From positions 3,513,001-3,577,000 of the forward strand of contig NZ_CP077085.1 in the NCBI RefSeq assembly GCF_014268455.2: DNA of 64,000 bases. The letters are read 5' to 3'. The notes beneath the pieces were generated by a model. The model searched no databases. It saw only the letters and a list, made by a program, of their open reading frames with translations, and was not told where the DNA came from. Position 1 is the stretch's first letter. Each line of letters starts with the position of its first letter. Shown piece after piece: positions 1-23,216 of the stretch. Position numbers and translations under genes: made by a program. The stretch comes from Pseudomonas shahriarae (lineage in GTDB: Bacteria; Pseudomonadota; Gammaproteobacteria; Pseudomonadales; Pseudomonadaceae).

Positions 1-1
1 T

Positions 2-2071: not shown

Positions 2072-2081
2072 TCAATCCCCT

Positions 2082-2168: not shown

Positions 2169-2190
2169 GGGTTTGTTGGCTAAGCCTCTG

Positions 2191-4332: not shown

Positions 4333-4365
4333 GCAAAACTCCAGGCAGATAAGAGAGGGATAGGT

Positions 4366-8351: not shown

Positions 8352-8791
8352 CTGCAACTCCATGGGCAGCGCGCCGATACCGGCTCCCGATCCAGGGACA
8401 GCGGGCCTGCCGGGCGGCACTTGTTTGGGAATGATTGCCCTTAAGAGGCATAGGTATCTACACAACTTTCAGAAACTGACGAACTCCCCTGTGGCGAGCG
8501 GGCTTGCCACAACTGGGCTATCTGCCTGGATTTAGGCGTTACGGCAAAGTTGTGTAGATACCTATGTTTAAGAGGGACAGCCCGGGACGGTAGCCACGCA
8601 CGCGGGTGCGCTCTACCCGATTCAAGTCAATTTCCAACCGTATCGCGCAGTCACCAGCGCCGCGGCCCACAGCAGAGGTGCTCAAGCCCGACACCGGCAT
8701 GCGGATTGGAGGGGCAATCGACTCGATACGGGTAGCGGCCAAAGTGACAGCGATTAGCATCGTTGCCCGTGTAAACGCCAACGGAAACCCC
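8352..8791. other. Divergent intergenic region carrying a repeat element
   Basis: This 440-bp region separates two divergently transcribed transporter units, so promoters for both should lie here. It contains an inverted-repeat element (8449-8566) with a single REP half (near 8492-8510) in its centre. Frames run open on both strands through 8580-8791, but none has a ribosome site or a recognisable domain. A weak AT-containing stretch (gggaatgattgccc, about 8429-8442) slightly recalls half a Fur box, too weak to call. Confidence 0.5.
8449..8566. repeat. MITE-like element with 21-bp perfect terminal inverted repeats
   Basis: The sequence 'cataggtatctacacaactt' plus one T at 8449-8469 is exactly reverse-complemented at 8546-8566. 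The enclosed 76 bp hold a REP-like core (gagcgggcttgcc). The purines/pyrimidines beside the arms (cccttaagagg on the left, tttaagaggga on the right) are also similar. No coding capacity. The size and structure fit a non-autonomous mobile repeat. I believe this motif is widespread in P. fluorescens-group intergenic DNA, but this is from memory and needs a genome search. Confidence 0.75.
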
Positions 8792-10513
8792 ATGACTAGC
8801 GCCCTAGACACCCTGCAACGCCCGGTCAACCACCTGATTCGCCTTGGCGTGGCGCTCGCCGCCGTCGGGGCCTTGGTGAACCTGGTGCCCTCTATTGCCT
8901 TGACCGAGCTGGCGCGCCTGCTACTGGCCGGCACTGCTGAGCAGCAAGCCCTGTGGCTGTGCGCCAGCTGGGTGGTGATTGCCCTGAGTGTCGGCTGGAT
9001 GGCCTGCGGCGCCGCCCTGTGGCTGACACACCTGGCCGACCATCGCTTGCAAGCCAGCCTGCGCGAAGCGCTGGTTGGCAAGCTCGCACGCGTGCCGCTG
9101 GGCTGGTACACCGAGTCGAGTTCCGGCGCAGTGCGCAAGGTAGTCCAGGACGATCTTGAAGACCTGCATCACCTGATCGCCCACCACGCCGTGGAACGTA
9201 CCGCCGCCATCGTCACGCCCCTGGCAGGGCTGGTGTGGCTGGCCAGCCTGAACTGGCGACTGGCGCTGCTGGCAGTGCTGACCCTGCCGCTCTATAGCCT
9301 GGCCTATGCCCTGATGATGCGCGGCTTCGGCAGCAAGATGCAGTTGCTGGATCAGAGCATGACCCGTATCAGCGCAGCCATTGTCGAGTTCGTCCACGGG
9401 ATTTCCGTAGTCAAGGCATTCGGTCGCGTCGGCCAGGCCCATCACGGCTATCAACAGGCAGTCAGCCAGTTCGGCCAGCAGTACGCCGACTGGGTGCGGC
9501 CCTTGCTGCGCCTGGAAGCCATTTCGTCCATGGCCCTGAGCGTGCCGGTGATTCTGCTGGTGAGCCTGGGGGTGGGCAGCCTGTGGTTGAGTCGCGGCTG
9601 GATCACCCCACTGCAATTGTTTGCCGAAACGCTGGTGGCGGTGGTCATTCCACAGTCCCTGCTGGTGATCAACCAGAGCCTGGCCGCCCAGCGTACTGCC
9701 CAGGCCGCCGCCGGGCGGATCGAAGCCCTGTTGAACGTAGAAGAACTGCCCACGCCAGCCCACTGCCGCGAACCGGCGGGGCACGATGTGAGGTTCGAAC
9801 AGGTCGAGTTTGGCTACGACGCAGCGCACCCGATCCTCAAGGGCATCGACCTGTATTGCCCGGCCGGTACGGTCACCGCGTTAGTGGGCAGTTCCGGTGC
9901 CGGTAAATCGACCCTGGCCAAGTTGGTGCCGCGTTTTCATGACGTCAACGCTGGCCGGGTGCTGGTGGGCGGTGTCGATGTGCGGCAGATCGACCCGGGC
10001 AAGTTGTACCGGCACGTCGGTTTTGTTTTGCAGGATGCGCAACTGGTGCATGGCAGCGTGGCCGATAACCTGCGCCTGGGCTGCCCCGGTGCCAGCGATG
10101 AGCAATTGCAGGCCGCCGCCCGCGCGGCGCAGATTCATCAGCGCATCCTGGCCCTGCCCCGAGGTTATCAATCCGTGATTGGCGAAGACGCGATTCTTTC
10201 CGGCGGCGAGGCCCAGCGCCTGTCAATCGCCCGTACGCTGCTGGCGGATACCCCGGTGCTGATCCTCGACGAAGCCACCTCCCACGCCGATCCGCAATCC
10301 GAGGCGCTGATCCAGGATGCGCTTTCTGCGCTGGCGCGAGGGCGCACGGTACTGGTGATTGCCCATCGCCTGGCGAGTATTCGCGATGTCGACCAAATCG
10401 TCGTGCTCGATCAGGGTCGCGTTGTGGAATGTGGTCGCCATCAGCAACTGCTGCAGGCCAACGGCGCCTACTCTCGGTTATGGCACGCCAGTGCGCTGGA
10501 GGCCTCGTTATGA
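8792..10513 (+). CDS. ABC half-transporter (permease-ATPase), PchH/YbtP/IrtA-like
   Basis: Protein of 573 aa: an N-terminal type IV exporter-fold membrane domain (about residues 15-310, six spans) followed by an ATPase domain. That domain has Walker A GSSGAGKST, signature LSGGEAQRLSIA, Walker B VLILDEATSHADP and H-loop VIAHR. The SHADP form instead of AALDP is seen in siderophore-linked members such as YbtP and IrtA. An upstream in-frame extension exists, but the ATG at 8792 follows GGA and matches the domain start. The stop overlaps the next gene by ATGA, so the two should form a heterodimer. The family handles Fe-siderophore import (YbtPQ, IrtAB) or pyochelin use (PchHI); direction and ligand here are inferred from FyuA-like neighbours. 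Confidence 0.9.
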   Translation: MTSALDTLQRPVNHLIRLGVALAAVGALVNLVPSIALTELARLLLAGTAEQQALWLCASWVVIALSVGWMACGAALWLTHLADHRLQASLREALVGKLARVPLGWYTESSSGAVRKVVQDDLEDLHHLIAHHAVERTAAIVTPLAGLVWLASLNWRLALLAVLTLPLYSLAYALMMRGFGSKMQLLDQSMTRISAAIVEFVHGISVVKAFGRVGQAHHGYQQAVSQFGQQYADWVRPLLRLEAISSMALSVPVILLVSLGVGSLWLSRGWITPLQLFAETLVAVVIPQSLLVINQSLAAQRTAQAAAGRIEALLNVEELPTPAHCREPAGHDVRFEQVEFGYDAAHPILKGIDLYCPAGTVTALVGSSGAGKSTLAKLVPRFHDVNAGRVLVGGVDVRQIDPGKLYRHVGFVLQDAQLVHGSVADNLRLGCPGASDEQLQAAARAAQIHQRILALPRGYQSVIGEDAILSGGEAQRLSIARTLLADTPVLILDEATSHADPQSEALIQDALSALARGRTVLVIAHRLASIRDVDQIVVLDQGRVVECGRHQQLLQANGAYSRLWHASALEASL

Positions 10514-12255
10514 TCCGCAGCCTGTCGACCTTGTTGGGCCCGGCCCACGCCACGCGCCTGTATCGCTACCTCGCCTGGCTGGTGGCCAGTGCCATGCTGC
10601 AAGGCTTGGCGGTGGCGTTACTGGTGCCGATCCTCCACGCGCTGTTTGCCGGCGACCTGCCGACGGCCATGACCTGGCTCGCCGGCCTCGCGGCGATGGT
10701 GGTGCTGACCTGCATTGCCCACTACCAGCAGGCGATGCAGGGGTTCGCCCTGGCGCTGCTGGTGCTTACCACTTTGCATGAGCGCCTTGGCCAGCACCTG
10801 ATGCGCCTGCCCCTGGGCTGGTTCGACAGCGAGAAGGTCGGCCAACTGTCGCGCAGCGCCACCAGCGGCACGCTGATGGTCACCGGGTTGTTTGCCCATT
10901 ATCTGGGCCCGGTGGTATCCGGCGTGGTGGTACCTGCCACAGTCGCGCTGACCCTGTTTGTGTTTGACTGGCGACTGGGGCTGACGGCGCTGCTGTGCGC
11001 GCCGCTGATCTATTTCACCCATCACTGGTCGGCCAATGCCATTGGCGCCAATGACGCGCGGGTCGAAGCCGCCGCCAGCGAAGCCGGCAACCGCGTGGTG
11101 GAATTTGCCCGCTACCAGCAAGTGCTGCGCGCCTTTGGCCGGGCCCAGGGCGGCTATCAGCCGTTGCAGGCGGCCAACCACGCACAACAACAGGCCGGGG
11201 GCTCGGTGCTGGCGCAGACCTTTCCCAAGTTGCTGGCCGGAGGCCTGAGCGTGCAATTGGCGTTCGCCCTGCTGGTTGGCGCGGGCATTGCCCTGGCCGT
11301 GACCCAACAGATCGACGCCATCGAGTTGGTGGCCTTGCTGGCCCTGGCCGCGCGGTTTGTCGGGCCCCTGGCGGAGGCCGCTGCGCGCAGTGGTTTGTTG
11401 CGTATGGCCGGCAACGACCTGGAGCAACTGGTGAGCATCCTGCGCCAACCACCTCTGGCGGAACCGGCGCACAGCCAACCCATGAGCGCCCCCGGCAGCC
11501 TCGAATTTGAACACGTGGGCTTTACCTACCCCAGTGGCCCGCCGGTGCTCAAGAACCTGAGTTTCAGCGCCCAGCCCAACACGATGACAGCGATTGTCGG
11601 CGCGTCGGGCTCGGGCAAGACCACTGTCACCCGCCTGCTGATGCGCTTCTTCGATGCCAGCGAGGGCAGCGTCAAGGTGGGCGGCGTGGATGTGCGCGCG
11701 CTGTCCAGCGAAGCCCTGATGGGGCAGCTGTCTTTGGTGATGCAGGACGTGTATCTGTTCGGCGGCAGCCTGGAGGCCAACATCCGCGTCGGCAACCCGG
11801 ATGCCAGCCCTCGGCAGTTGGCGCAAGCGGCAACATTGGCTGGCGTCGATGAGATCGTCGCGCGCCTGCCACAAGGCTGGGACACCCCGGTCGGTGAAGG
11901 GGGTTCCAGCCTGTCCGGCGGTGAACGCCAACGCGTGTCCCTGGCGCGTGCCCTGCTCAAGCGCGCGCCGATTGTGCTGCTGGATGAAGCCACGGCAGCA
12001 CTCGATCCGCAGAATGAGGCTTACGTGCAAGCCGCCATTGGCACGCTGATCCAGCGTGCCACCGTGCTGGTGATCGCCCATCGCTTGCCGACCATCATGG
12101 CTGCCGACCAGATCCTGGTGCTCGATGAAGGTCGCCTCGTGGAGTCGGGTACTCACCGTCAGTTGCTCACCCACAACGGGCGCTACGCCGGTTTTTGGCA
12201 CGAGCGTCAACGGGCCGGCGGCTGGCGACTGAAACAGGAGCGGCCCTCATTGTAG
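10510..12255 (+). CDS. ABC half-transporter (permease-ATPase), PchI/YbtQ/IrtB-like
   Basis: Partner half-transporter of 581 aa. The membrane domain occupies about residues 1-320. The ATPase domain has Walker A GASGSGKTT, Q-loop LVMQDVYLFGG, signature LSGGERQRVSLA, Walker B IVLLDEATAALDP and H-loop VIAHR. The start at 10510 overlaps the stop of the preceding gene (ATGA), which implies translational coupling and a 1:1 heterodimer. The stop codon lies inside a REP-like sequence (12250-12280). The gene lies directly upstream of the MarR regulator and the enzyme operon, so its product may move that operon's product or its metal complex. Confidence 0.9.
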   Translation: MIRSLSTLLGPAHATRLYRYLAWLVASAMLQGLAVALLVPILHALFAGDLPTAMTWLAGLAAMVVLTCIAHYQQAMQGFALALLVLTTLHERLGQHLMRLPLGWFDSEKVGQLSRSATSGTLMVTGLFAHYLGPVVSGVVVPATVALTLFVFDWRLGLTALLCAPLIYFTHHWSANAIGANDARVEAAASEAGNRVVEFARYQQVLRAFGRAQGGYQPLQAANHAQQQAGGSVLAQTFPKLLAGGLSVQLAFALLVGAGIALAVTQQIDAIELVALLALAARFVGPLAEAAARSGLLRMAGNDLEQLVSILRQPPLAEPAHSQPMSAPGSLEFEHVGFTYPSGPPVLKNLSFSAQPNTMTAIVGASGSGKTTVTRLLMRFFDASEGSVKVGGVDVRALSSEALMGQLSLVMQDVYLFGGSLEANIRVGNPDASPRQLAQAATLAGVDEIVARLPQGWDTPVGEGGSSLSGGERQRVSLARALLKRAPIVLLDEATAALDPQNEAYVQAAIGTLIQRATVLVIAHRLPTIMAADQILVLDEGRLVESGTHRQLLTHNGRYAGFWHERQRAGGWRLKQERPSL

Positions 12256-12280
12256 GAGCCGGCTTACCCGCGATGGCGCC
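12250..12280 (+). repeat. Single REP-like element overlapping a stop codon
   Basis: The segment tgtaggagccggcttacccg with its gcgatggc continuation resembles the local REP consensus. The TAG stop of the preceding ABC gene (12253-12255) is part of the element. It marks the boundary between the transporter pair and the MarR-headed gene set. Confidence 0.65.
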
Positions 12281-12348
12281 CTATAAAGCGACACGCATCC
12301 CGGTGACGAAGGCGCCCAGCATCGACATTAAACAAAATGTTGACTTAG

Positions 12349-12375
12349 TAAGGCGCCAAGATAAACTGCGCCTTA
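12349..12375 (+). promoter_or_regulatory. Candidate MarR operator overlapping promoter and start codon
   Basis: TAAGGCGC (12349-12356) and GCGCCTTA (12368-12375) are perfect inverted repeats around an 11-bp AT-rich spacer (caagataaact). A TTGACT box (12340-12345) and ATAAAC (12361-12366) could serve as -35 and -10 with a short 15-bp spacer. The right arm ends on the A of the regulator's ATG. MarR proteins commonly repress their own gene through such palindromes. The site was not noticed elsewhere in the window. Confidence 0.55.
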
Positions 12376-12887
12376 TGAATATTTTAGAGAACAAACACCA
12401 CATCATGCTGCGCGAGCTTGATGGGGTGCCAGCCGAGGTCAGGGACAGTGTCAAGCTGTGCTTCGAGCTGCTGTCGGCCGCGGCCGCGATCAATCGTGTG
12501 TGTGCCATCCGCCTGGCTCGCTACAACCTGTCGGAGGGCCGCTTCGTCATCATGCTCACCCTCAAGAGTGCCGGCGGGAAGCTGTCGCCGCTGGAGTTGG
12601 CGACCCGCCTTTCAATTACCACCGGCACCGTTACCGGCTTGCTCGATGGCTTGCAGGGCGACGGGTTTATCAAGCGCAAAACCGACCCGACCGACCGACG
12701 CAAGCTGATTATCAGCCTGACCACCGACGGTAAACGCGTGGTCGATGAGGTGTTTGCCGAACACACGGATTGGATCAGCGGCATCATCCAGGGCTTGAGC
12801 ATTGAGCAGCGCCAGGCATTGTCCGAGTCGATTTATTGCATCTCGGCCAGCCACGCACTGTCCCAGCAACTGCCGGATGAGCATTAG
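12375..12887 (+). CDS. MarR-family transcriptional regulator
   Basis: Protein of 170 aa with a winged-helix core. The recognition region reads LSPLELATRLSITTGTVTGLLDGLQ, followed by the wing segment RKTDPTDRRKLIISLT, where the DxRR motif is typical of MarR. Helices before and after form the dimer interface. No clear Shine-Dalgarno precedes the ATG at 12375; a second ATG at 12405 is possible. A perfect palindrome spans the promoter region up to the start codon, which fits autorepression. It lies 50 bp before an eight-gene enzyme run on the same strand, so it is the likely local regulator, possibly released by the pathway product or by a phenolic ligand. Confidence 0.9.
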   Translation: MNILENKHHIMLRELDGVPAEVRDSVKLCFELLSAAAAINRVCAIRLARYNLSEGRFVIMLTLKSAGGKLSPLELATRLSITTGTVTGLLDGLQGDGFIKRKTDPTDRRKLIISLTTDGKRVVDEVFAEHTDWISGIIQGLSIEQRQALSESIYCISASHALSQQLPDEH

Positions 12888-12937
12888 GCCCGGGTTTCAA
12901 TTGCTTCAATCGCGGTAGTCACACAAGGAGGTGTTTG

Positions 12938-13867
12938 ATGCTGCACAGTCAGCGAGTGATGACCAATTTCGGCAGGAAGCCACGGATCCACAGTGGCGTC
13001 GATGTCATCCGCCACAGCATGGTTTCCCTGGAACGCTACATCCCACCCACGCTTTACCGGCGCTTGTTTATCAAGCGTATCGCCCGCCATTCCCTGGCCA
13101 TCGAAGGCTTTGAGTTTCGCCCGGTGCAAAGTCTGTTCGAACTGGAAGAGGCCTTGCGCCTGGTCAACGACAGCTATGCACGGCGCGGTATCTCCACAGT
13201 GTGCCGGGCCGGAATGCGCTTTTCGGCGTTCCACCTGTTGCCGGGCACCACCACCTTTGTGGCTATCAAGGATCAACAGATCGTCGGCACCGTCTCGTTG
13301 ATCGAGGATTCCATGCTCGGTTTGCCCCTGGAAGAAGTCCATGGCAACGAGGTCGTCATGCAGCGCCTGGCCGGCGGCCGGCTGGCAGAGGTCGGCACCC
13401 TGGCGGTGGCTGCAGGTTACCGAGGCAAAGGGGTGCCCTTGATGCTCTACAATGCGATGTTTCGCTGGGCCATGCATTTTCGCGGGGTACAGCGCTTGCT
13501 GATCGCCGTGCATCCGCGGGCGGGGGCGTTTTATCGCAATGTATTGTTCTTCTCCCCCATGGGCCGGGTGCAGCCCTACACCAAGCTAAACAACGCCCTG
13601 TCGCTGCCCTTGTGTCTGGATCTGGGCAACGCGCCGGCGATTTTTCAGCAGGCTTATCAGCGCCCCACCCTGGGGTTTTCCGTCGAAGGCCAGCGCACGC
13701 ACTTCTTCGATTTTTTCTGCCGCAGTGACTACGCCCATATCCGCCTGCCCGCTACCGGCAGCGTACGCCGCTGGGACGCGCAAGAAGTGCTGACGCATAT
13801 GGCGCGCTGTGGCGTGCATGGCCGAAACCTGTCGCCACGGGTCCAGCGAGCACTGGCCCTGGCGTAA
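12938..13867 (+). CDS. FeeM-like N-acyl amino acid synthase (GNAT fold)
   Basis: Protein of 309 aa. The central segment matches the FeeM/N-acyl amino acid synthase core: VNDSYARRG, then LLPGTTTFVAIKDQQIVGTV, the SLIEDSMLGLPLEE stretch, and a GNAT acyl-donor segment AEVGTLAVAAGYRGKG. FeeM-type enzymes take a fatty acyl group from acyl-ACP and place it on the amine of an amino acid such as tyrosine. They share the fold of LuxI autoinducer synthases. The start at 12938 has AAGGAGG six bases upstream; nearby GTG and TTG starts are less well placed. The gene opens a packed run ending with an antiporter. A later amidase gene could remove or swap the acyl group. Acyl donor and acceptor are not known. 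Confidence 0.75.
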   Translation: MLHSQRVMTNFGRKPRIHSGVDVIRHSMVSLERYIPPTLYRRLFIKRIARHSLAIEGFEFRPVQSLFELEEALRLVNDSYARRGISTVCRAGMRFSAFHLLPGTTTFVAIKDQQIVGTVSLIEDSMLGLPLEEVHGNEVVMQRLAGGRLAEVGTLAVAAGYRGKGVPLMLYNAMFRWAMHFRGVQRLLIAVHPRAGAFYRNVLFFSPMGRVQPYTKLNNALSLPLCLDLGNAPAIFQQAYQRPTLGFSVEGQRTHFFDFFCRSDYAHIRLPATGSVRRWDAQEVLTHMARCGVHGRNLSPRVQRALALA

Positions 13868-13901
13868 GCACGTTCAAACGTCATTTCATGGAGGAAGCAG
13901 T

Positions 13902-14768
13902 ATGGACAGCGGATTGCTGCGCGCGATATTCAGGGAAATAACGATCAAGCAACCGTTCGAGCGCATACCCGAACCGGCCTTGGTCATGGAAGCACAACAG
14001 AGTGTGGCGTCCTATGCCGACAGTGCGGCCCAGGGCCAGGCCTTGTCCGGCACCCACCTTTATCACTGTGCGCAGATGTGCGCGCTGATCAAGCCCGGCG
14101 ACGTGGTGCTGGACATCGGCTGCGGCCCAGCGGCCCTGTTGCTGCAAGTCGCACGGCTCAACCCACGGGCCGAATTCATTGGCATGGACCTGTCGCAGAA
14201 CATGCTGGAAGTGGCGCGTGAAGCGTGTCATCAGCAAGGCATCGACAACGTGCAACTGGTTGAAGATGACATGACTCGGCTCAGCATGATCGCTGACCGC
14301 AGCGTGGATGTAGTGATCTCGTCGATGGCCCTGCATCACCTGGAAAACCTTGGCCAGTTGGAAGGTACTTTTCGCAATATCTCCCGGGTACTGCGCAATG
14401 ACCGGGCGATTTACCTGAATGACTTCGGGCGCCTGAAAACCATCGAGTCCGTCGACTACTTTGTCCAGCGCGCCAGCGACGGCGCGGACGCGGAAACCCT
14501 GTTGGACTATCGAAACTCGCTGCTCGCGGCTTTCTCGCTGGAAGAGTTCCAGACCCTGGCCGCCAGTTACCTGGGCCCGTGTGCCAAGGTCTATAGCACC
14601 GCGTTCAGCCCGTTGATGATGGTGATTCGCACGCCCAAGCGACGCTGCGTGAAGGTAATGAAACCCGAGTTCCGCCGCCGCTACACTGCGCTACCCGCCA
14701 GTCGCCAGGCGGATGTGAACCAGTTGCGCCTGTTCCTGCGCCTGGGAGGCCTGGCCAGTGCCTTTTGA
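13902..14768 (+). CDS. SAM-dependent class I methyltransferase
   Basis: Soluble protein of 288 aa with a Rossmann-type methyltransferase core. Motif I is VVLDIGCGPAAL (about residues 68-79), motif II is FIGMDLSQNML, and the later segments VQLVEDDMTRL and VDVVISSMALHHL match motifs III and IV. The last ~60 residues are basic and not assigned. GAGGAAG precedes the ATG at 13902. Its end overlaps the start of the flavin oxidase gene by 11 bp, so the two are probably translationally coupled. It would methylate an O, N or C atom of the pathway intermediate; the substrate is unknown. Confidence 0.88.
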   Translation: MDSGLLRAIFREITIKQPFERIPEPALVMEAQQSVASYADSAAQGQALSGTHLYHCAQMCALIKPGDVVLDIGCGPAALLLQVARLNPRAEFIGMDLSQNMLEVAREACHQQGIDNVQLVEDDMTRLSMIADRSVDVVISSMALHHLENLGQLEGTFRNISRVLRNDRAIYLNDFGRLKTIESVDYFVQRASDGADAETLLDYRNSLLAAFSLEEFQTLAASYLGPCAKVYSTAFSPLMMVIRTPKRRCVKVMKPEFRRRYTALPASRQADVNQLRLFLRLGGLASAF

Positions 14769-16380
14769 ATCCGCCCACCTGACATTTGCCCAGCAACAAT
14801 GGCGCGAGGTTCTCGGTGACGCGGGTGTGCGCGTCGACCCGGCAAGCATCGAGCGTTTCGGGCAAGACACCATGTGTTCCCCCGCGTATGCCAGGGTGGT
14901 GATTGCGCCACGCTCAACCGAGCAAGTCTCGGCATGTATGGTGATCGCACAGCGTCATGGGGTTGCCGTGCATCCGATCAGCACCGGGCACAACTGGGGT
15001 TATGGCAGCGCCTCGACCAGCGACGCCCGCTGTGTGCTGATGGATTTGTCCGGGATGGACCGGGTTCTGGGGTTCGATGAGGAGCTGTCGGTGGTGACCC
15101 TGGAGCCAGGGGTGACCCAGGGCGATCTCGCCCGTTATCTACAGGAGCACAACTTGCCCTGGCTGACACCCGTCACCGGCGCGGGCCCGACCTGCAGCGT
15201 GCTGGGCAATGCACTGGAGCGCGGTTTTGGCATCACCCCCCATACCGATCACTTTCAGGCGGTACTCGGCATCGAAGCGGTGCTGGCAGACGGCACGCTG
15301 TACCGCTCGCCAATGGCCCTGGGGGTCACGGCGCCCTGCTTCAAATGGGGTGTGGGGCCGTACCTGGACGGGCTGTTCAGCCAGAGCGGGCTGGGCGTGG
15401 TGACGCAAATGTCGATTGCCCTGGTGCGCAAGCCCGAGGTTATCCAGCCGTTTTATTTCTGGGTGGATGAAGAGCAAGGGCTGGAAGCCGCGTTGGCAGG
15501 GATCAAGCGCATGCTGGACCTGGCCCCCGGGCAGATTGGAGGTATCAACCTGATGAACCGCACACGGCTATTGACCATGGCCAGCGAAGACACCCAGGTG
15601 GTGGGCATGAGTGAAGAGCAGCAACGGGCCGCCGCCGAAGCCCTGGGCCTGCCGGCGTGGATGGGCGTCGGTTCGATCTATTGCCAGAAAGCCCAGTACG
15701 CCCCGCTCAAACACATGATCAACCGTGAACTTGAGGCTTTCGCCAGCAAATCGATGTTCAAGAGCCGTGGTCAGTTGACCACCGCTCGACGCTTGCTAGG
15801 CCATCTGCCCGGCGGCTGGTCCCGGCGCTGGCAGCGGACCCTGGGCAAGATGCTGCAAGGCATCGACCTGATGGAAGGCCAGCCCAGCGAAGTGGCCCTG
15901 CCGTTGGCCTACACTGCCGGCGCCAAGCCGCTGCCCGATGCGCCCCTGAACCCGGCGCGGGATAACTGCGGGCTGATCTGGTACGCACCGATCCTGCCGC
16001 TGAAAATCCAGGAGGTCGCCGATTTTGTGCGCGCCATGGAGCGTCGGTGCCGCCAGCAGCAAATGCCTTGCCCGGTGACGCTGACCAGCCTGTCGAGTCG
16101 TGCCATCGACTGCACCGTACCGCTGCTGTTCGATCGTGCGGACGCCCAGGCGTCAACCCGGGCCCATGAGTGCTATCGCCAACTGTTCGCCCAAGGCAAG
16201 GCACAGGGCGTATTGCCGTATCGCGTGCCCGCCAGCTTCATGCACCTGCTGACCGACGCTCAGGGGCCCGCCTGGCAGCTCGGGGCGCGGATCAAGGCCG
16301 CATTGGATCCGGGCAACCTGCTTTCACCAGGGCGTTACTGCGCCACAAACCCAACGCCTGACCAGGCCATGACCGCGTAG
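14758..16380 (+). CDS. FAD-linked oxidase of the VAO/p-cresol methylhydroxylase family
   Basis: Protein of 540 aa starting with GTG, with GGGAGG eight bases upstream and inside the end of the methyltransferase gene. The N-terminal PP-loop FAD domain is clear (VVIAPRSTEQVSACMVIA, HPISTGHNWGYGS, VTLEPGVTQGDLARYL). A substrate domain follows (GITPHTDHF, SGLGVVTQMSIAL), and the C-terminus has the family ending LDPGNLLSPGRY. Members oxidise para-alkyl phenols such as p-cresol or vanillyl alcohol, which would suit a phenolic, for example tyrosine-derived, substrate made by the preceding synthase. That link is inference. Whether FAD is covalently bound cannot be decided by eye. Confidence 0.88.
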   Translation: MPFESAHLTFAQQQWREVLGDAGVRVDPASIERFGQDTMCSPAYARVVIAPRSTEQVSACMVIAQRHGVAVHPISTGHNWGYGSASTSDARCVLMDLSGMDRVLGFDEELSVVTLEPGVTQGDLARYLQEHNLPWLTPVTGAGPTCSVLGNALERGFGITPHTDHFQAVLGIEAVLADGTLYRSPMALGVTAPCFKWGVGPYLDGLFSQSGLGVVTQMSIALVRKPEVIQPFYFWVDEEQGLEAALAGIKRMLDLAPGQIGGINLMNRTRLLTMASEDTQVVGMSEEQQRAAAEALGLPAWMGVGSIYCQKAQYAPLKHMINRELEAFASKSMFKSRGQLTTARRLLGHLPGGWSRRWQRTLGKMLQGIDLMEGQPSEVALPLAYTAGAKPLPDAPLNPARDNCGLIWYAPILPLKIQEVADFVRAMERRCRQQQMPCPVTLTSLSSRAIDCTVPLLFDRADAQASTRAHECYRQLFAQGKAQGVLPYRVPASFMHLLTDAQGPAWQLGARIKAALDPGNLLSPGRYCATNPTPDQAMTA

Positions 16381-16391
16381 GTGGTATCGAG

Positions 16392-17156
16392 ATGAGTGAG
16401 GAACGCAAGGACCTGATTGACCAGGGCCGCCTGGCCACCCGCAATCTGGGCGAGTGTCTGGCCGTTGACCAGGTAGCGCTGGCAGCGGCCCTTGGCGCGC
16501 AGTTGGAGCCGTCTCTGGCGCGAACACTTTACAGCGCAGCCCAGGCCGGCCAGGCCCTGGGCATTTCCAAGAAAGTCGCCGCCCTGGGCCTTGCGCTGGG
16601 GCAGTGGCTGGAGAGCGCCGCCCTGCCCCTGCGCGAGCAGACCTGGGGCCTGCTGCTGGAGCATCCGTCGGACACCGTGCGCAGTTGGGCGGCCTTTGCC
16701 AACGCCTACTGCCAACGCAACAGCGAACCGGAGCAGGCTTTGCTGAGCCAGTTCCGATTCGCCACCGACCCGCATTTCGGCGTGCGCGAATGGGCCTGGA
16801 TTGCCTTGCGACCGTTGCTGGCCCGGGACCTGACGGGCGCACTGGAGATGCTACGCCGCCATGCCCGCAGCGATGACCCGCTGATCCGCCGTTTCTGCGT
16901 TGAAATCCTGCGCCCGCGTGGGGTCTGGTGCGAGCACATCGCCCCGCTCAAAGCCGAGCCGCAGATGGCCGAACCCTTGCTGATTGCCATGCTCGATGAA
17001 ACCGACAAATACGCCCAGGACTCGGTCGCCAACTGGATCAACGACGCCAGCAAGACCCGGCCGGATTGGGTGCAGCATTTGTTCGAGCGCTACCCACCCA
17101 GCGGCAAAGCCGCCACCAGGATTTTTACCCGGGCTACCCGCAGCCTTTCTCAATAG
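16392..17156 (+). CDS. HEAT-repeat protein related to AlkC/AlkD DNA alkylation repair
   Basis: All-helical protein of 254 aa built of HEAT-like repeats. The C-terminal half lines up with the conserved block of AlkC/AlkD-type DNA glycosylases: DPLIRRFCVEILRPRGVW parallels the family's HVRRLxSEGxRPRLPW, and YAQDSVANWINDASK parallels YVRxSVANHLNDISK. The family excises alkylated bases such as 3-methyladenine. I did not find the exact AlkD catalytic residues, so glycosylase activity is uncertain and a scaffold role is possible. Some AlkD relatives (for example YtkR2) are self-resistance genes in clusters for DNA-alkylating metabolites, which makes its place inside this enzyme run notable. It starts 11 bp after the oxidase stop. 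Confidence 0.75.
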   Translation: MSEERKDLIDQGRLATRNLGECLAVDQVALAAALGAQLEPSLARTLYSAAQAGQALGISKKVAALGLALGQWLESAALPLREQTWGLLLEHPSDTVRSWAAFANAYCQRNSEPEQALLSQFRFATDPHFGVREWAWIALRPLLARDLTGALEMLRRHARSDDPLIRRFCVEILRPRGVWCEHIAPLKAEPQMAEPLLIAMLDETDKYAQDSVANWINDASKTRPDWVQHLFERYPPSGKAATRIFTRATRSLSQ

Positions 17157-17175
17157 ATGTGAACAGGAGTCACAA

Positions 17176-17817
17176 ATGTCGCTCAAAGAAAAGCTACAAA
17201 CCGTCAAGGACCAGATGGCCCAGCTGCCTGCCGAGGTCCTGCACAAGTTCCAGGCATCGCTACAGACGCTGCTCGACAGCCATTTGGGCGACAAGGCTCT
17301 GAAGGTCAACGACAAGGCGCCCCTGGCGGTGCTCAAGGATGCTGACGAGCAGGATGTGGACCTACGCCAGTTGCTGGATAAAGGTCCATTGGTGCTGGTG
17401 TTCTACCGAGGCCTGTGGTGCCCCTTCTGCGGCCAGGCATTGACCGCCTACCAGCAGATGGTCGGGGACCTTGCCGCCTCGGGCGCCACCCTGGTGGCCG
17501 TGTCGGCACAAACGCCGGAGTTCACGCGCAAGACCCGCGAAGCCCTCGGCATCAAATACCTGTTGCTCAGCGATACCGATAACCAGCTGGCGCGCCAGTA
17601 CGGCATCGTGTTCAAGCTCGAAGACGAGCTGGATGAGGTCTACCGCTCCCTGGGTGCCGACCTCAAGCTATTCAACGGCTCCGACGCCCTGACCTTGCCC
17701 CTGGCCAGCGCCTTTGTGATCGGCCAGGACGGGCTGATCCGCGCCGCCTTCGTCAACGTGGACTACTCGCAACGGGTAGAGCCACAGGCATTGATCACGG
17801 CCGCCAGCCGCGTATAA
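17176..17817 (+). CDS. Peroxiredoxin-like (AhpC/TSA family) protein
   Basis: Thioredoxin-fold protein of 213 aa. The active-site segment is FYRGLWCPFCGQAL, giving a CPFC pair (C-x-x-C) in place of the usual single peroxidatic Cys motif. The later stretch AVSAQTPEFTRKTREAL and the C-terminal ASAFVIGQDGLI fit the AhpC/TSA fold. GGAG lies upstream of the ATG at 17176. It follows the HEAT-protein gene by 19 bp and precedes a hairpin and the halogenase-like gene. It could remove peroxide released by the two flavoenzymes, or act as a disulfide reductase in the pathway; both are inference. Confidence 0.88.
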   Translation: MSLKEKLQTVKDQMAQLPAEVLHKFQASLQTLLDSHLGDKALKVNDKAPLAVLKDADEQDVDLRQLLDKGPLVLVFYRGLWCPFCGQALTAYQQMVGDLAASGATLVAVSAQTPEFTRKTREALGIKYLLLSDTDNQLARQYGIVFKLEDELDEVYRSLGADLKLFNGSDALTLPLASAFVIGQDGLIRAAFVNVDYSQRVEPQALITAASRV

Positions 17818-17827
17818 CCGGCAACCC

Positions 17828-17855
17828 TCGCCGAAGGTACCCACGCCTTTGGCGA
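17828..17855 (+). other. Intercistronic hairpin before the halogenase-like gene
   Basis: TCGCCGAAGG (17828-17837) pairs with CCTTTGGCGA (17846-17855), with one G-U pair and an 8-base loop. There is no T-run after it, so it is not a simple terminator. It lies in the largest gap (63 bp) of the enzyme operon after the FeeM-like gene and may set the relative level of downstream genes. Confidence 0.55.
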
Positions 17856-17880
17856 ACCCACTTGTTCAGGGACTGACGAC

Positions 17881-19551
17881 ATGAAACGAATCGCAATCAT
17901 GGGGGCCGGTGTAGCCGGTCACCTGGCCGCGCTGTACTTCAAAAAAAGGTTACCGGGTGTCGAAGTCATCCTGATCGGGCGTCCGGACCGCAAGCGCCCG
18001 ATCGTCGGCGAGTCCACAGTCGAGTTGACTACCCACTTCTTCAAGGGCCTGGGGCTGGGGCGCCTGCTGGAAGAAAAGCACTACCACAAGTACGGCCTGA
18101 CCTATTACCTGAAGCTGCGCAACAACCCCGAGTGCCGCAACTACGTGGTGCACGAGGCTCCGGGCGTGATCCGCATGCCGGCCTACAATCTCAACCGTTT
18201 CAGTTTCGACAAGGACCTGCGCCAGATTGTCGGTGATCAGCAGGTACAAATGATTGAGGCCGATGTCACTGCCGTCGACCTCAATGCCGGTGAGCACGCC
18301 ACCCACCTGCTGACCCTGCGCAGTGCCGCCGATGAGCAACAGCAACTGACCGCCGATTGGGTGGTGGACGCCACCGGCCGCAATCGCTTCATGGCGAAAA
18401 AGCTCAAGCTGCACAAAGAAGCGACGTACCAGCGCAGTACCTTCTGGCTCAGGCTCAAGGACTTCGACCGCAGCATCTTGTCCAGCATCACCGCGCACAA
18501 GGACAAGCATCACTGCTACGACCCGTACTACGTGACCCATCATTTTTATGGCAAGGGCTACTGGATCTGGATGATCCCGATGCGCAGCGACGACGGCAAC
18601 GAGATGATCAGCATCGGCATCACCTACCGGCCGGACATGATCGAGCAGAAAATCGGCACCCTGGAGGCCTTCAAGGAAAAGGTCATGGCCGACCATCCGG
18701 TGATTACCGAGTTGATCGAGTCGGGCCAACTGGTCGATACCCAGGCCATGCACAACTACATGTACGAGGCGCGGCAATACTACTCGACCGAAGGTTGGTT
18801 CCTGCTGGGCGACGCAGCCTTTACCTTCGACCCGGCCAACAGCGCCGGGCTGGCCTATGTGGCGCAGCAGATCCCGCAAGTCGCTGCGATGATCGAGAAG
18901 GATATCCACGGCAGCCTGACACCCGCCTACGTCAACTGCCTGGAGTCGCACATCCAGGCGCAACTGGCCCTGCAGGACACCTGGAGCAAGTGGTACGAGG
19001 TGATGGACGACCCGTTCATGATGGGCTGGACCCTGCTGTTCGCCAACATGGCGTACTTCCACGTGGTGTTGCCGATGTACATGACCGGGGATTTTCTCGA
19101 TGGTCATCAGGCCCAGCAATTTGCCGACCTGCTGCCGCGCTACACCCGCGAGATGCAACCCTCGCCCCTGCCGTTTGCCTGCCTGCTGCAAGAGATCCGT
19201 CGCTCGAACCCGGGCTTGAGCCCGGAGATGATGCCCAACCTCTACTCACGCACCATCAACTTCGACCTGTACAGGGCGGAGAACCGCGCACGGCCGATCT
19301 ACGCCTCCAACTATTACCTGCGCTCGGCGCTGCTGCGGGTGCGGCTGATGAAAATGGTCAAGTGGTCGCTGTCCGCACGCCACTTCAAGTTGTTGCTGCG
19401 CCATGGCGGTGGCGCCGTGCAGGACCTGGCACGGGCTGCGGTCCTGCGCCTGCGCCCTTCACTGTTCTACAAATATGGCGAGTCGCCGGAGCTGCTGAAG
19501 TCGCCGTTTGGCAAGGAAGGTGGCTTCCTCGACCTGGTACGTCGCGGATGA
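17881..19551 (+). CDS. Flavin-dependent halogenase-like FAD monooxygenase
   Basis: Protein of 556 aa. It begins with an FAD-binding GAGVAG at residues 8-13, followed by GESTVE (43-48), the GEATV-like motif of tryptophan halogenases. The halogenase fingerprint WxWxIP is present as WIWMIP at 228-233. A further FAD motif reads FLLGDAAFTFDP, then NSAGLA. A lysine at about 70 (HKYGLTYY) is a candidate for the catalytic lysine that forms the chloramine/HOCl relay. It lies 63 bp after the peroxiredoxin gene and overlaps the amidase gene by ATGA. It could halogenate a phenol or pyrrole ring, or be a halogenase-fold monooxygenase. A flavin reductase partner is not encoded nearby. Confidence 0.82.
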   Translation: MKRIAIMGAGVAGHLAALYFKKRLPGVEVILIGRPDRKRPIVGESTVELTTHFFKGLGLGRLLEEKHYHKYGLTYYLKLRNNPECRNYVVHEAPGVIRMPAYNLNRFSFDKDLRQIVGDQQVQMIEADVTAVDLNAGEHATHLLTLRSAADEQQQLTADWVVDATGRNRFMAKKLKLHKEATYQRSTFWLRLKDFDRSILSSITAHKDKHHCYDPYYVTHHFYGKGYWIWMIPMRSDDGNEMISIGITYRPDMIEQKIGTLEAFKEKVMADHPVITELIESGQLVDTQAMHNYMYEARQYYSTEGWFLLGDAAFTFDPANSAGLAYVAQQIPQVAAMIEKDIHGSLTPAYVNCLESHIQAQLALQDTWSKWYEVMDDPFMMGWTLLFANMAYFHVVLPMYMTGDFLDGHQAQQFADLLPRYTREMQPSPLPFACLLQEIRRSNPGLSPEMMPNLYSRTINFDLYRAENRARPIYASNYYLRSALLRVRLMKMVKWSLSARHFKLLLRHGGGAVQDLARAAVLRLRPSLFYKYGESPELLKSPFGKEGGFLDLVRRG

Positions 19552-21029
19552 ACGGCATGGCGCAGGTCCGCACTGACCTGCTGGACCTGAGTGCCGTGCA
19601 ACTGGCGTGGTTGATTCGCGGCAAGCAGATATCGCCGGTGGAACTGATCGAGCAATGCATTGCGCGCCTGGAGCAGGTCCAGCCACTGTGCAATGCGATG
19701 GCGGTCGACCTGTTCGAGGCTGCCCGCGACGCTGCCCGCCGGGCCGAAGAGGATGTGCTCAAGGGGCGGCCACTGGGACGCTTGCACGGCGTGCCCTTCT
19801 CCATGAAGGAAGGCCTGGGTCTTGCGGGGGCCCCCAAGACCTGCGGCTCACGCCTGCGCAGCAACACCCGCGCCCGCAGCACCGCCACGGTGGCCACGCG
19901 GCTGCTGGCGGCCGGCGCCATCCCCCTGGCCTTGGGCAATCAGGCAGAGATGGCGTTGTGGCCCGAAACGGACAACCTGGTGTATGGCCGCACACTCAAC
20001 CCCTACGACACCTCACGCACCGCCGGTGGCAGCAGCGGCGGTGACTCAGTGATGGTCGCCAGCGGATGCGTGCCCTTTGCCCTGGGCACCGACGGCGGCG
20101 GCTCGATCCGCATCCCGGCGGCGTTCAATGGGATTTTTGGTTTGAAGCCGTCACGGGGGCTGGTGCCGCTGAGTGGGCACCTGCCGCTGGATGACCAGCG
20201 GTGGTCATTGCCGGTGTCCCAAGCCGTTGCCGGCCACTTTGCAGCGGGCCCCCTGTGCCGGTACGCAGAGGACCTGGGCGTAGTGCTGGAGGTCATCGCC
20301 GGCAGCGACGGGATCGACCGCAATATCCACTCCGGCTACCAGCAACCGCCCCAGGCGACACCGCTCAAGCGCGTATTCATCTGCCTGCCGGCCCCTGTCA
20401 AATGGGGCACGCCACTCTCGCCCGCCGTGACTGCTGCGGTGATCGAGACCGGCCAGCGTTATGCGGACCAAGGTGTGGAGGTGCAAGCCTGGAGTGAAAG
20501 CTGTTTAACCAACGCGTTTTTTATCTGGCTGGCCGTACTCAAGTGCGAGACCCATATTCACCTGGCCGACTACCTCGGGGATGGGCAGCCACTGAATTAT
20601 CCACGGGCGTTGTATGCAGCCCTGGCTGGCAGGCCGCAGTTCTCCCGGGGGCCACTGCTTGCCAGCTTGATGGACAGCTGCGGCGATCAGCTGGGCAACC
20701 CGGGGCTCGCGCGGTTCCTGAAGCAGCGCGATCACTTGCAGCAGGCCCTGGCCGGGTTGTTCGACGGCCAGAGCATTCTGGTGTTGCCGGCCACCCCGAG
20801 CGTGGCGCCGGCCCATGGCAGTGCCCTGAAGCGCCCGTTCGATATCGGCTATTGCGCGCTGTTCAATGTCCTCGGTTTTCCGGCCCTTTGCGTGCCTATG
20901 GGGCGCCTCGACCAGGGCTGCCCGGTGGCCGTGCAACTGGTGGCCGGGCTGGGCCAGGACGCGTTGTTACTGGAAGCCGCGCGCTTTCTGGAAATGGAAT
21001 TCGGCGGCTGGCGCAAGCCCCCGCTCTGA
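19548..21029 (+). CDS. Amidase-signature family hydrolase (FAAH-like)
   Basis: Protein of 493 aa with the complete amidase-signature core. The catalytic Lys is in VPFSMKEGLGLAG, the cis-Ser in GGSSGGD, and the nucleophilic Ser in DGGGSIRIPAAFNGIFGLKP. The family hydrolyses amides, including fatty-acid amides (FAAH), or transfers acyl groups. Placed in one operon with a FeeM-like N-acyl synthase, it could trim an N-acyl protecting group or form the final amide; this is inference. The start ATG overlaps the halogenase stop (ATGA); an alternative ATG lies nine bases further. A 24-bp gap leads to the antiporter gene. Confidence 0.88.
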   Translation: MNGMAQVRTDLLDLSAVQLAWLIRGKQISPVELIEQCIARLEQVQPLCNAMAVDLFEAARDAARRAEEDVLKGRPLGRLHGVPFSMKEGLGLAGAPKTCGSRLRSNTRARSTATVATRLLAAGAIPLALGNQAEMALWPETDNLVYGRTLNPYDTSRTAGGSSGGDSVMVASGCVPFALGTDGGGSIRIPAAFNGIFGLKPSRGLVPLSGHLPLDDQRWSLPVSQAVAGHFAAGPLCRYAEDLGVVLEVIAGSDGIDRNIHSGYQQPPQATPLKRVFICLPAPVKWGTPLSPAVTAAVIETGQRYADQGVEVQAWSESCLTNAFFIWLAVLKCETHIHLADYLGDGQPLNYPRALYAALAGRPQFSRGPLLASLMDSCGDQLGNPGLARFLKQRDHLQQALAGLFDGQSILVLPATPSVAPAHGSALKRPFDIGYCALFNVLGFPALCVPMGRLDQGCPVAVQLVAGLGQDALLLEAARFLEMEFGGWRKPPL

Positions 21030-21053
21030 CACCTCAAGTACTAGGACCTCCCC

Positions 21054-22391
21054 ATGCAAACCAACACCAGCGCTATCACGCTACAAGCCCCTGCGCCTGC
21101 GGGCGGGCAATCGGCCGTGGGCTCCCAGGCCGAGCATTTGACCCTGTTGTTCCTGATCCAACTGATCGTGATTTTCAGCGCCAGCCGCCTGATCTCCTGG
21201 CTCAGCACCCGCTGCCTGGGGCAAACCCCGGTGGCCGGGGAGATTCTCGCCGGGCTGGTCCTGGGCCCGAGCCTGCTGGGGTATTTTTTCCCGGAACTGC
21301 TCAGCAGTATCTTTGTGCCGCAAACCTCCACCGCCTTTGTCGCCACGGCCCAGGTCGGCCTGATTCTGTTGATGTTCCAGGTGGGCCTGGAATTTGAATT
21401 CGGCGCCCACCTCAAGGGGCGTAAACGCTCGATCATGGCGATCAGCCTGGGTGGACTGCTGGTGCCATTTGCCAGTGGCTTCCTGGTGGCCGAGTATTTC
21501 TGGCAACAGATCGTCGGCGACAAGCCGCCACTGCTGGCCTTCCAACTGTTTTTTGCCACGGCGTTGTCGATCACCGCCTTGCCGATCCTTGGGCGGATCT
21601 TCATGGAACTGGGGCTGTCCCGCTCCCGCGTGGCCACCCTGACGATTGGCGCGGCGGCCATCGATGATGTGTGCGGCTGGCTGATCCTCGGTGGGGTAAC
21701 GTCGATCATCGCGTCCAATTTCAGTGTGTGGGCCTCCCTGGGCAGGATCCTCGCGCTGGCGGTGTTTATCGTGTTGGTGCTGTGGGTGGTGCGGCCCTTG
21801 GTGCTGCGCTGGATCATCGGCGACCTGGAGCGCAAGCCGCTGTCGGCCCAGGGTATTTCCCTGATGCTGATCGTGCTGTTTGGCAGTGCAGTGATTACCA
21901 ACCTGATCGGCGTATTTTCGATCATTGGCGGTTTTATCATCGGCGTCGCCCTGCACACCCACCGGCCCTTTGTCACACAGTGGAATGCCAAGGTCAGTGG
22001 TCTGGTCAATGCGTTTTTCCTGCCGGTGTTCTTTGCCTACACCGGCCTGCGCACCGACATCGGCTCGCTCAACGGCGACACGGCGCTGCTCAATTGCTTT
22101 CTGGTGTGCCTGGTGGCGTTCGCCAGCAAATTCTTCGGGGCTTACGGCGCCAGCCGCTGGCTGGGCGAGACACCGCGCAACAGCGCGCTGATCGGCGTGT
22201 GCATGAACACCCGGGCGCTGATGGAACTGGTGGTGCTCAACGTGGGCTATGACCTGGGCGTGCTGCCCAAGGAGTACTTCACCATGCTGGTGATCATGGC
22301 CATCATCAGTACCTTTATCGCCTCGCCCCTGATCCGCCTGCTGACGAGTGAAGAGCGACGTATACCGGTGGGCCAACCTGCGGTGAAATAA
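21054..22391 (+). CDS. CPA2-family monovalent cation:proton antiporter
   Basis: Inner-membrane protein of 445 aa with about 12 hydrophobic spans after a polar 25-residue N-terminus. Family marks include TPVAGEILAGLVLGPSLLG, the GLILLMFQVGLEFEF stretch, the paired acidic residues in AAAIDDVCGW, and FFLPVFFAYTGLRTD. No RCK/TrkA-N nucleotide-binding tail is present, so this is the short KefB/NapA-like form. It closes the enzyme run on the same strand. Antiporters of this kind occur in some metabolite clusters, where they may help export or ion homeostasis; that role is inferred here. Confidence 0.9.
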   Translation: MQTNTSAITLQAPAPAGGQSAVGSQAEHLTLLFLIQLIVIFSASRLISWLSTRCLGQTPVAGEILAGLVLGPSLLGYFFPELLSSIFVPQTSTAFVATAQVGLILLMFQVGLEFEFGAHLKGRKRSIMAISLGGLLVPFASGFLVAEYFWQQIVGDKPPLLAFQLFFATALSITALPILGRIFMELGLSRSRVATLTIGAAAIDDVCGWLILGGVTSIIASNFSVWASLGRILALAVFIVLVLWVVRPLVLRWIIGDLERKPLSAQGISLMLIVLFGSAVITNLIGVFSIIGGFIIGVALHTHRPFVTQWNAKVSGLVNAFFLPVFFAYTGLRTDIGSLNGDTALLNCFLVCLVAFASKFFGAYGASRWLGETPRNSALIGVCMNTRALMELVVLNVGYDLGVLPKEYFTMLVIMAIISTFIASPLIRLLTSEERRIPVGQPAVK

Positions 22392-22589: not shown

Positions 22590-23216
22590 TTACTTGCCCT
22601 CGGTCAACGCGTTGTAGCTGGTGAACAGGTTGCGATAGTCCGGGATGTGGTTGGAGAACAAGGTCCCCAGGCCTTCGATATCGTTGCGCCAGTCGCGGTG
22701 CAGCTCGCAGGCCAGGCCAAACCAGGTCATCAGTTGCGCGCCGTTGGCGGTCATGCGGGCCCAGGCCGATTGCTGGGTCAGTTCGTTGAAAGTGCCGGAG
22801 GCATCGGTCACCACAAACACGTCATAGCCTTCGGCCAGGGCCGACAGCGCCGGGAACGCCACGCACACCTCGGTCACCACGCCAGCGATGATCAGTTGCT
22901 TCTTGCCGGTAGCCTTGATGGCCTTGACGAAGTCTTCGTTGTCCCAGGCGTTGATCTGGCCAGGGCGGGCAATGTACGGCGCGTCCGGGAACAGCGCCTT
23001 GAGCTCGGGCACCAGCGGGCCGTTGGGGCCGGTTTCGAAACTGGTGGTGAGGATGGTCGGCAGCTTGAAGTACTTGGCCAGGTCAGCCAGGGCCAGTACG
23101 TTGTTCTTGAACTTGTCGGGCTCGATATCGCGGACCAGTGACAGCAAGCCAGCCTGATGGTCAACCAGCAGGACAGCTGCGTTGTCTTTGTCCAGGCGAA
23201 CGTAGGGTTTAGACAT
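22590..23216 (-). CDS. ycaC: YcaC-like isochorismatase-family hydrolase
   Basis: Soluble hydrolase of 208 aa, the same length as E. coli YcaC. The family Asp lies in VLLVDHQAGLL, the nucleophilic Cys in GVVTEVCVAFPAL, and the N-terminus SKPYVRLDKDNAA is typical. The true substrate of YcaC-type proteins is not settled. I chose the ATG at 23216, seven bases after AGGAG; the adjacent ATG at 23219 is equally in frame. It is transcribed away from a LysR gene 249 bp upstream, which is its likely regulator. It ends next to a REP cluster. Confidence 0.9.
   Translation of the reverse strand: MSKPYVRLDKDNAAVLLVDHQAGLLSLVRDIEPDKFKNNVLALADLAKYFKLPTILTTSFETGPNGPLVPELKALFPDAPYIARPGQINAWDNEDFVKAIKATGKKQLIIAGVVTEVCVAFPALSALAEGYDVFVVTDASGTFNELTQQSAWARMTANGAQLMTWFGLACELHRDWRNDIEGLGTLFSNHIPDYRNLFTSYNALTEGK

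Follow-up and report, generated by a model that had tools for sequence, protein, structure and literature searches.

A FeeM-based gene cluster of Pseudomonas that includes an AlkC-like protein and may direct the synthesis of a DNA-damaging phenol

What might be made by a gene cluster that combines an N-acyl amino acid synthase with flavin-dependent enzymes, and why should it include a relative of DNA glycosylases? The question is raised by a conserved block of about 10 kb (12329-22391, + strand) in a 64,000-nucleotide stretch of the Pseudomonas shahriarae genome (RefSeq assembly GCF_014268455.2, contig NZ_CP077085.1, positions 3,513,001 to 3,577,000; the whole of this stretch is called the window below). 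Nine genes follow one another in the block: MarR, FeeM-like, methyltransferase, oxidase, HEAT, peroxiredoxin, halogenase, amidase and CPA2 antiporter. The explanation we favour, with roughly even confidence in it as a whole, is that they form a self-contained, horizontally moving biosynthetic cluster, whose FeeM-based pathway would yield a halogenated phenol that resembles an acyl-tyrosine and alkylates DNA, with self-resistance of an AlkC type. Domains were called with Pfam and NCBIfam profiles on the nine cassette proteins, and the features are as follows (window coordinates, strand, identity).

12329..22391, +, the entire conserved block; both borders coincide, or nearly so, with the end of nucleotide similarity to other Pseudomonas loci
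12340..12375, +, probable promoter/operator; -35/-10 by eye, conserved in 10 aligned Pseudomonas loci
12375..12887, +, MarR-family regulator (PF01047, 1.2e-12; present in 10/10 Pseudomonas loci)
12938..13867, +, FeeM-like N-acyl amino acid synthase, GNAT fold (PF21926, 1e-36; 2g0b FeeM, 1.5e-8)
13902..14768, +, class I S-adenosylmethionine methyltransferase (Pfam, 1.9e-22; nearest solved folds CouO/NovO and Coq5)
14758..16380, +, VAO/PCMH-family para-alkylphenol oxidase or dehydrogenase (FAD_binding_4, PF01565, 1.9e-26)
16392..17156, +, AlkC-like HEAT-repeat DNA glycosylase, proposed self-resistance (5vi0/5vhv, 1.7e-11; model fold)
17176..17817, +, peroxiredoxin-like protein (AhpC-TSA, 4.1e-25; Pseudomonas version only)
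17881..19551, +, flavin-dependent halogenase-like enzyme, relative of CmlS/PltA (Trp_halogenase, PF04820, 4.2e-21)
19548..21029, +, amidase-signature hydrolase (Amidase, 1.5e-79; Lys-Ser-Ser triad)
21054..22391, +, CPA2 antiporter (Na_H_Exchanger, 5.4e-49, the sole domain matched)

All nine frames are intact on the + strand, with no internal stops, and in nucleotide comparison the similarity between Pseudomonas loci sets in about 40 bp 5' of marR and ends with the antiporter. The gaps within the block measure 71, 34, 11, 19, 63 and 24 bp (FeeM being counted from 12959), there are two true overlaps, of 11 bp between methyltransferase and oxidase and of 4 bp between halogenase and amidase, and a single transcription unit is supported. 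For the FeeM-like frame the probable start is ATG 12938, which follows a conserved AAGGAGGTG, and the methyltransferase starts, as in its relatives, at ATG 13902; an apparent overlap of these two genes is an artefact of taking the longest open reading frame. The preliminary description of this DNA had reported a MarR gene and eight packed genes on the same strand, headed by a FeeM-type enzyme and free of polyketide synthase (PKS) and nonribosomal peptide synthetase (NRPS) genes, and this is borne out, the gene identities included. It had also reported several overlapping stops and starts, of which the tight packing and the two overlaps given above stand and the one between FeeM and methyltransferase falls.

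The gene set proved to be conserved as a unit. A full-length FeeM gene is found in 9 of 298 Pseudomonas genomes, and the halogenase and oxidase genes in exactly these nine, in scans that scored only 4, 4 and 9 candidates per genome for halogenase, oxidase and HEAT, respectively; two weak FeeM matches with internal stops (G051, 1.1e-6; G004, 2.3e-4) are excluded from the count of nine. All ten Pseudomonas loci examined, one from each of the nine genomes and the tenth from P. putida NBRC 14671, carry the nine genes in identical order, within three flank contexts (the window/gessardii group, G061, and the putida group), so that the neighbourhood test put forward in the preliminary description, conserved co-occurrence, came out in favour of the cluster. 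The halogenase was found in 4 of 274 Gammaproteobacteria, its own genome included, the other three matches being distant (1e-27 to 1e-34); in Pseudoalteromonas, 2 of 99 genomes have a true one and seven others a distant one. Pseudoalteromonas flavipulchra (L018) and a second Pseudoalteromonas (L102, G599) carry HEAT, FeeM, methyltransferase, oxidase, halogenase and amidase genes together with a divergent marR, and the antiporter was not found in these two stretches.

The whole core cluster also lies on a plasmid of Methylorubrum populi P-1M, pMPPM04 (L074, NZ_AP014813.1; 41,417 bp, typed as mobilizable). The genes there are a divergent Rrf2 gene, HEAT (under the annotation 'DNA alkylation repair protein'), GNAT, methyltransferase, FAD oxidase, 'tryptophan 7-halogenase', amidase, NAD(P)H oxidoreductase and a cation:proton antiporter, with an IS1380 transposase gene beside the regulator at the cluster edge. 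The Pseudoalteromonas and Methylorubrum proteins are 35-50% identical to those of the window, and the antiporter counterpart on the plasmid is 25% identical. The peroxiredoxin is absent by tblastn from the L018, L074 and L102 stretches; after the amidase the plasmid has a flavodoxin counterpart, 46% identical to that of L018, and Pseudomonas has the peroxiredoxin instead. Six genes make up the core common to the three genera (HEAT, FeeM, methyltransferase, oxidase, halogenase and amidase), and the glycosylase gene belongs to the conserved cluster at all ten Pseudomonas loci, the two Pseudoalteromonas loci and the one plasmid. As side observations, an AzoR-like flavodoxin gene adjoins the Pseudoalteromonas marR (L018 4296-4919), and the G+C content of the pMPPM04 core cluster is 0.56, against 0.60 for its stretch. 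Since the window contains no Rfam match and no tRNA, no integration site was recognised in it.

The preliminary description had missed what the HEAT protein adds, namely that it is AlkC-like and is kept alone without the pathway, which points to a DNA-damaging product. Its HEAT_2 Pfam match (5.1e-6, 27.1 bits) lies just below the cut-off of 27.7 bits. The sequence match to P. fluorescens AlkC extends over residues 134-252, and a structural model with a mean pLDDT of 93.7 has AlkC as its top Foldseek match (E 3e-6, TMq 0.72), followed by AlkD2 relatives. By sequence and modelled fold the protein is AlkC-like, from the alkylpurine DNA glycosylase family, and base excision is predicted. The cassette copy is an extra one, since six of the nine cluster genomes also carry an ordinary AlkC of about 370 aa elsewhere; phage carriage of the HEAT protein gave no match. 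We think it likely that this protein serves the producer as self-resistance.

Cassette-type HEAT genes, defined by a threshold of E<=1e-124 (the next best match is at 1e-25), are present in 13 of the 298 Pseudomonas genomes, nine with the cluster and four without it (G145, G057, G289 and G009), and HEAT is the only one of the four genes scanned that survives without the others. FeeM, halogenase and oxidase were missing from all four orphan genomes in the genus scans; at E<=0.001 the halogenase gave nothing in G145, G057 and G289, and in G009 only a distant halogenase-like match (2e-11). Three of the four keep HEAT at the site where relatives carry the whole cluster. In G057 and G289 it stands alone exactly between the cluster's left and right flanks: the left flank matches that of the cluster locus S37 up to about 12.61-12.62 kb (the S37 marR starts at 12.8 kb), HEAT follows, and the S37 match resumes at 22.83 kb, just behind the antiporter, which in S37 stops at 22866 and elsewhere ends 20-30 codons earlier. 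G145 has the same right junction, and its left flank resumes about 5 kb further out. Its HEAT frame ends in TPAAAEVGAG, where the antiporter of NBRC 14671 has the C-terminus TPEATEVGSG, and the stop and the downstream DNA are the same in both; this tail is what would be expected from a deletion scar and fits the loss of all that lay between HEAT and the final codons of the antiporter.

In a tree, all four orphans fall inside the 14-row Pseudomonas cassette clade (support 100/100), and the three at the putida site group with the four putida cassettes, although this grouping, at 84/96, stays under the star limit of the tool. The orphan proteins retain the conserved blocks. Because the cluster carries its own DNA-repair gene, and because some bacteria have kept that gene after losing the other genes, the product is probably DNA-damaging. 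These relic alleles also make the resistance claim directly testable across sister strains that have the cluster, the relic or neither.

A related arrangement, consisting of MarR, AlkC and DUF6616 genes, was found at nine loci, in stretches that gave no match to FeeM, halogenase or the other core genes.

L099, L100, L101, L105, L106, L108, L111, L112, L113: MarR-AlkC-DUF6616 trios, on plasmids and chromosomes

One Klebsiella isolate has such trios on two of its plasmids, with a recombinase and a Tn3 transposase behind them; the others come one each from Sphingopyxis, Paracoccus, Aeromonas and Shinella (the 'plasmid' records of the last two measure 4.9 and 4.6 Mb) and from three phylum-scan genomes. 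DUF6616 is missing from the MarR-AlkC pair of a fourth phylum genome, and in four more HEAT has neither partner, one of these genes lying at a contig end. Plasmid records with a HEAT match numbered 18, and the neighbourhoods of 7 were read. No function is described for DUF6616, and the name was not found in the literature searched.

The regulatory region of the window's marR may link the two arrangements. A -35 element (TTGACT, 12340-12345) and a -10 element (TAAACT, 12362-12367), assigned by eye with a spacer of 16 bp, are overlapped by an inverted repeat, TAAGGCGC-N11-GCGCCTTA (12349-12375), which is single-copy in the window on the strand scanned. When the 75-bp stretch was shuffled 2000 times by mononucleotides, a repeat arm of at least 8 bp appeared in 23 of the shuffles. 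Perfect palindromes of 9-10 bp (TGATTAGGCGCCTAATCA) precede marR in three genomic MarR-AlkC-DUF6616 modules, and the window operator carries TAAGGCGCC, a resemblance that does no more than suggest kinship between the two sets of operators. MarR, bound to the palindrome that overlaps its promoter, would keep the operon repressed until released by a ligand.

Which chemistry do the enzymes suggest? The FeeM domain scores 126.6 bits, against a Pfam cut-off of 27. In the oxidase, which has the PP-loop FAD domain of the VAO/PCMH family and aligns with p-cresol methylhydroxylase (PCMH) at 2e-55, the residues Y82, Y488 and R489 correspond, counted along the alignment, to Tyr95, Tyr473 and Arg474 of PCMH, which we take to be its phenol-holding residues. 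All three are invariant in six aligned oxidase sequences from three genera, and the Tyr/Tyr/Arg set of phenol contacts that goes with the family is thus present. This conservation supports the phenolic substrate that the preliminary description had guessed at. A FeeM enzyme feeding a para-phenol oxidase in turn suggests a substrate like N-acyl-tyrosine, and we lean towards a phenolic N-acyl amino acid as the product.

The halogenase domain scores 75.8 bits (cut-off 21), and the protein matches CmlS at 1.4e-14 and PltA at 5.2e-10. Its K70 (HKYG), which aligns with the CmlS/PltA lysine, and its WxWxIP motif are found in 8/8 aligned sequences and at 13/13 loci scanned; monooxygenases are among its relatives, and halogenation is predicted here. 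K87, S163 and S186 of the amidase are invariant in four sequences from three genera; a regular expression for the triad missed six loci, two of which are in the four-sequence alignment and show the triad. CouO and NovO, the first fold matches of the methyltransferase model, are C-methyltransferases. C-methylation is only hinted at, since 1353 chains passed E<=0.001, many scoring close, with a model of mean pLDDT only 75.6.

From these genes we infer a route, a product, its genotoxicity, a self-resistance function and a mode of regulation. FeeM would transfer a fatty-acyl group from acyl-ACP (acyl carrier protein) to an amino acid's amino group, with tyrosine or a relative as the most likely acceptor, and the PCMH/VAO-type flavoenzyme would oxidise the benzylic carbon of the para-alkylphenol through a p-quinone methide. 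Methyltransferase (perhaps by ring C-methylation) and halogenase would decorate and tune the phenol ring, and the amidase would act on the amide, either trimming it or releasing an active head group. The product or an intermediate would then be an electrophile that alkylates DNA bases, and the AlkC-like glycosylase would remove the adducts and so protect the producer. Quinone methides attack cytosine N3, adenine N1 and guanine N7, and AlkC prefers small cationic lesions, such as 3-methylcytosine and 3-methyladenine; alkylation of DNA through a quinone methide is a tentative proposal, with the chances somewhat against it. The peroxiredoxin (in Pseudomonas), the AzoR-like, quinone-reductase-type flavodoxin (in Pseudoalteromonas and Methylorubrum) and the antiporter may give protection from peroxide, quinones or electrophiles.

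Several observations weigh against this favoured explanation. The HEAT protein (254 aa, against the 369-aa AlkC chain, on which the match stops at residue 241) lacks about 110 C-terminal residues of the solved AlkC; AlkC forms without the C-terminal domain exist. Its family extends beyond the cluster, with matches in 9 of 398 phylum genomes, so the protein need not serve the pathway. In G057 and G289, HEAT is 75-78% identical in nucleotides to the cluster copies, against 84-91% for the flanks, so that recombination, not simple loss, may lie behind these genes; the G009 orphan stands at an unrelated site, and the left flank of G145 differs. The flavin-linking Tyr384 of PCMH is replaced by N398 in the oxidase (counted by hand), a covalent flavin not being universal in the VAO/PCMH family, and the methyltransferase's specificity is a weak fold match. 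The antiporter has no detected KTN/TrkA domain and is therefore not a plain KefB/C. Finally, the amidase of G052, the nearest relative, looks frame-shifted: it lies in two frames that meet at residue 204 (L019, about 20682), by frameshift or sequencing error.

Part of the same evidence could be read as a pathway to a non-genotoxic acyl-amino-acid lipid, acting as a signal, as a surfactant or as an antibiotic with a target elsewhere. Acyl tyrosines and dehydrotyrosines, the FeeM/NasY products that have been characterised, play a part in biofilms or act as mild antimicrobials (PMC12479983), and the AlkC-like gene, whose family is also found away from clusters, would then mend side damage from leaky quinone methide or from peroxide, which oxidase and peroxiredoxin imply, or have another role with nucleic acids. 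This fits poorly with a glycosylase that belongs to the core of three genera where the peroxiredoxin does not, and that is the tested gene kept without the pathway, which an accessory against endogenous by-products would not predict. We regard the lipid as unlikely.

The company of MarR, AzoR-like protein, peroxiredoxin, antiporter and glycosylase, all typical stress genes, brings to mind an operon under MarR control that would detoxify or catabolise phenolic amides or electrophiles of plant or competitor origin, and in which oxidase, amidase and FeeM would modify the compound, AlkC repair damage and the antiporter restore ions. PCMH/VAO relatives degrade lignin phenols, and the MarR-AlkC-DUF6616 trios resemble a stand-alone stress response. 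An acyl-ACP-type synthase with a methyltransferase and a halogenase is an assembly set, however, and none of the nine genes matches ring-cleavage or beta-oxidation families, which makes such an operon quite improbable. A siderophore-like system that includes the upstream FyuA-like receptors and ABC exporters/importers has adjacency in the window's genome in its favour, and we reject it as very improbable because conservation of the block does not extend to those receptor and ABC genes, whose stretch of about 13.5 kb is missing beside the cluster at the nine further Pseudomonas loci.

Returning to the FeeM-based route to a DNA-alkylating phenol, how does it compare with known systems? Like the FeeM/NasY N-acyl-tyrosine clusters (the fee cluster from environmental DNA, those for thalassotalic acids, kyonggic acids and stieleriacines, and tyzACB of Mycobacterium tuberculosis), the cassette has a FeeM-type synthase with tailoring enzymes and no PKS or NRPS, and Stieleria has an adjoining methyltransferase; unlike them, it adds a VAO/PCMH oxidase, a halogenase, an amidase and an AlkC-like protein. 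Known N-acyl dehydrotyrosine clusters use ThiF-like and nitroreductase proteins for desaturation (PMC12479983). Identity with this pathway was rejected, as neither family has a match among the nine cassette genes. CmlS and PltA have the FAD fold, the lysine and the WxWxIP motif in common with the cassette halogenase, which differs in being distant from both and in having no carrier-protein gene nearby.

Clusters with glycosylase self-resistance (YtkR2/AlkD; AlkZ, TxnU, LldU and HedH4 of the HTH_42 family) likewise carry a base-excision glycosylase; YtkR2 is a relative with HEAT-like repeats, and the cassette enzyme is AlkC-like instead. Such self-resistance has been described with AlkD and AlkZ/YcaQ family members (PMC8934636, PMC9040887, PMC8626424), and a 2022 abstract names these two families, YtkR2/AlkD and AlkZ/YcaQ, only (PMC8934636). 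In the literature searched, from whose scope subscription journals and MIBiG were left out, we found neither an AlkC-type case nor a description of the cassette's gene set. Colibactin, a DNA alkylator made as an N-acyl prodrug, also combines an acylated amino acid with an amidase-signature enzyme, and its amidase ClbL is among the solved relatives of the cassette amidase, for which there may be a parallel in prodrug release; unlike colibactin, the cassette has no PKS or NRPS, and the resistance gene differs.

If the favoured explanation is right, it describes an N-acyl-amino-acid route to DNA-damaging natural products that is free of PKS and NRPS and that cluster finders keyed to these enzymes would tend to miss; AlkC would join the self-resistance glycosylase families, and the MarR-regulated AlkC-like genes on mobile elements would be explained. 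A broader proposal is possible, though we would not expect it to hold in full: small N-acyl phenolic genotoxins may be a widespread, unrecognised class, whose producers carry AlkC-type self-resistance as a third glycosylase family in that role. In non-producers the antidote would be retained or gained by itself, either as a relic at the same site, in Pseudomonas, or within mobile MarR-AlkC-DUF6616 modules, whose operators would be related and which are carried across Proteobacteria by plasmids and a transposon; there MarR would sense the toxin and switch repair on.

Some features in and around the block stand apart from this argument. A role in anti-phage defence was rejected: PADLOC gave only MarR against a CARF model (1.8e-4, 19.2 bits) and no match for the seven other cassette proteins sent, the methyltransferase not being among them. 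The genome of the window also holds a second, weak FeeM-domain match (G000:C1:2699372-2699698, L039) of 27.9 bits, against the cut-off of 27. Upstream of the block, the stretch of about 13.5 kb comprises window positions 1-12328 and some 1.2 kb before the window. It encodes two TonB-dependent receptors of the siderophore type, two ABC exporters resembling MsbA/CydD, and a DrrA-like ABC ATPase, whose 1034-aa partner has no match in any family. The preliminary description had placed PchHI/YbtPQ-type ABC genes and FyuA-like receptors directly upstream; they are real and adjacent, and their tie to the block is not supported. At the other nine loci FyuA and ABC genes are not cassette-adjacent, with weak ABC-domain and TonB matches (20-35% identity) elsewhere in the stretches. 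The common upstream flank lies 65 bp from the cassette in G052, against about 13.5 kb in the window's genome; the receptor and ABC genes either came in by a local insertion or have been lost from the other loci, and they lie outside the cluster. Directly behind the cluster, on the opposite strand, is a gene for a YcaC-type cysteine hydrolase (window 22590-23213; 402 bits, cut-off 310), which is not cassette-adjacent in the other loci and lies about 5 kb downstream in G032.

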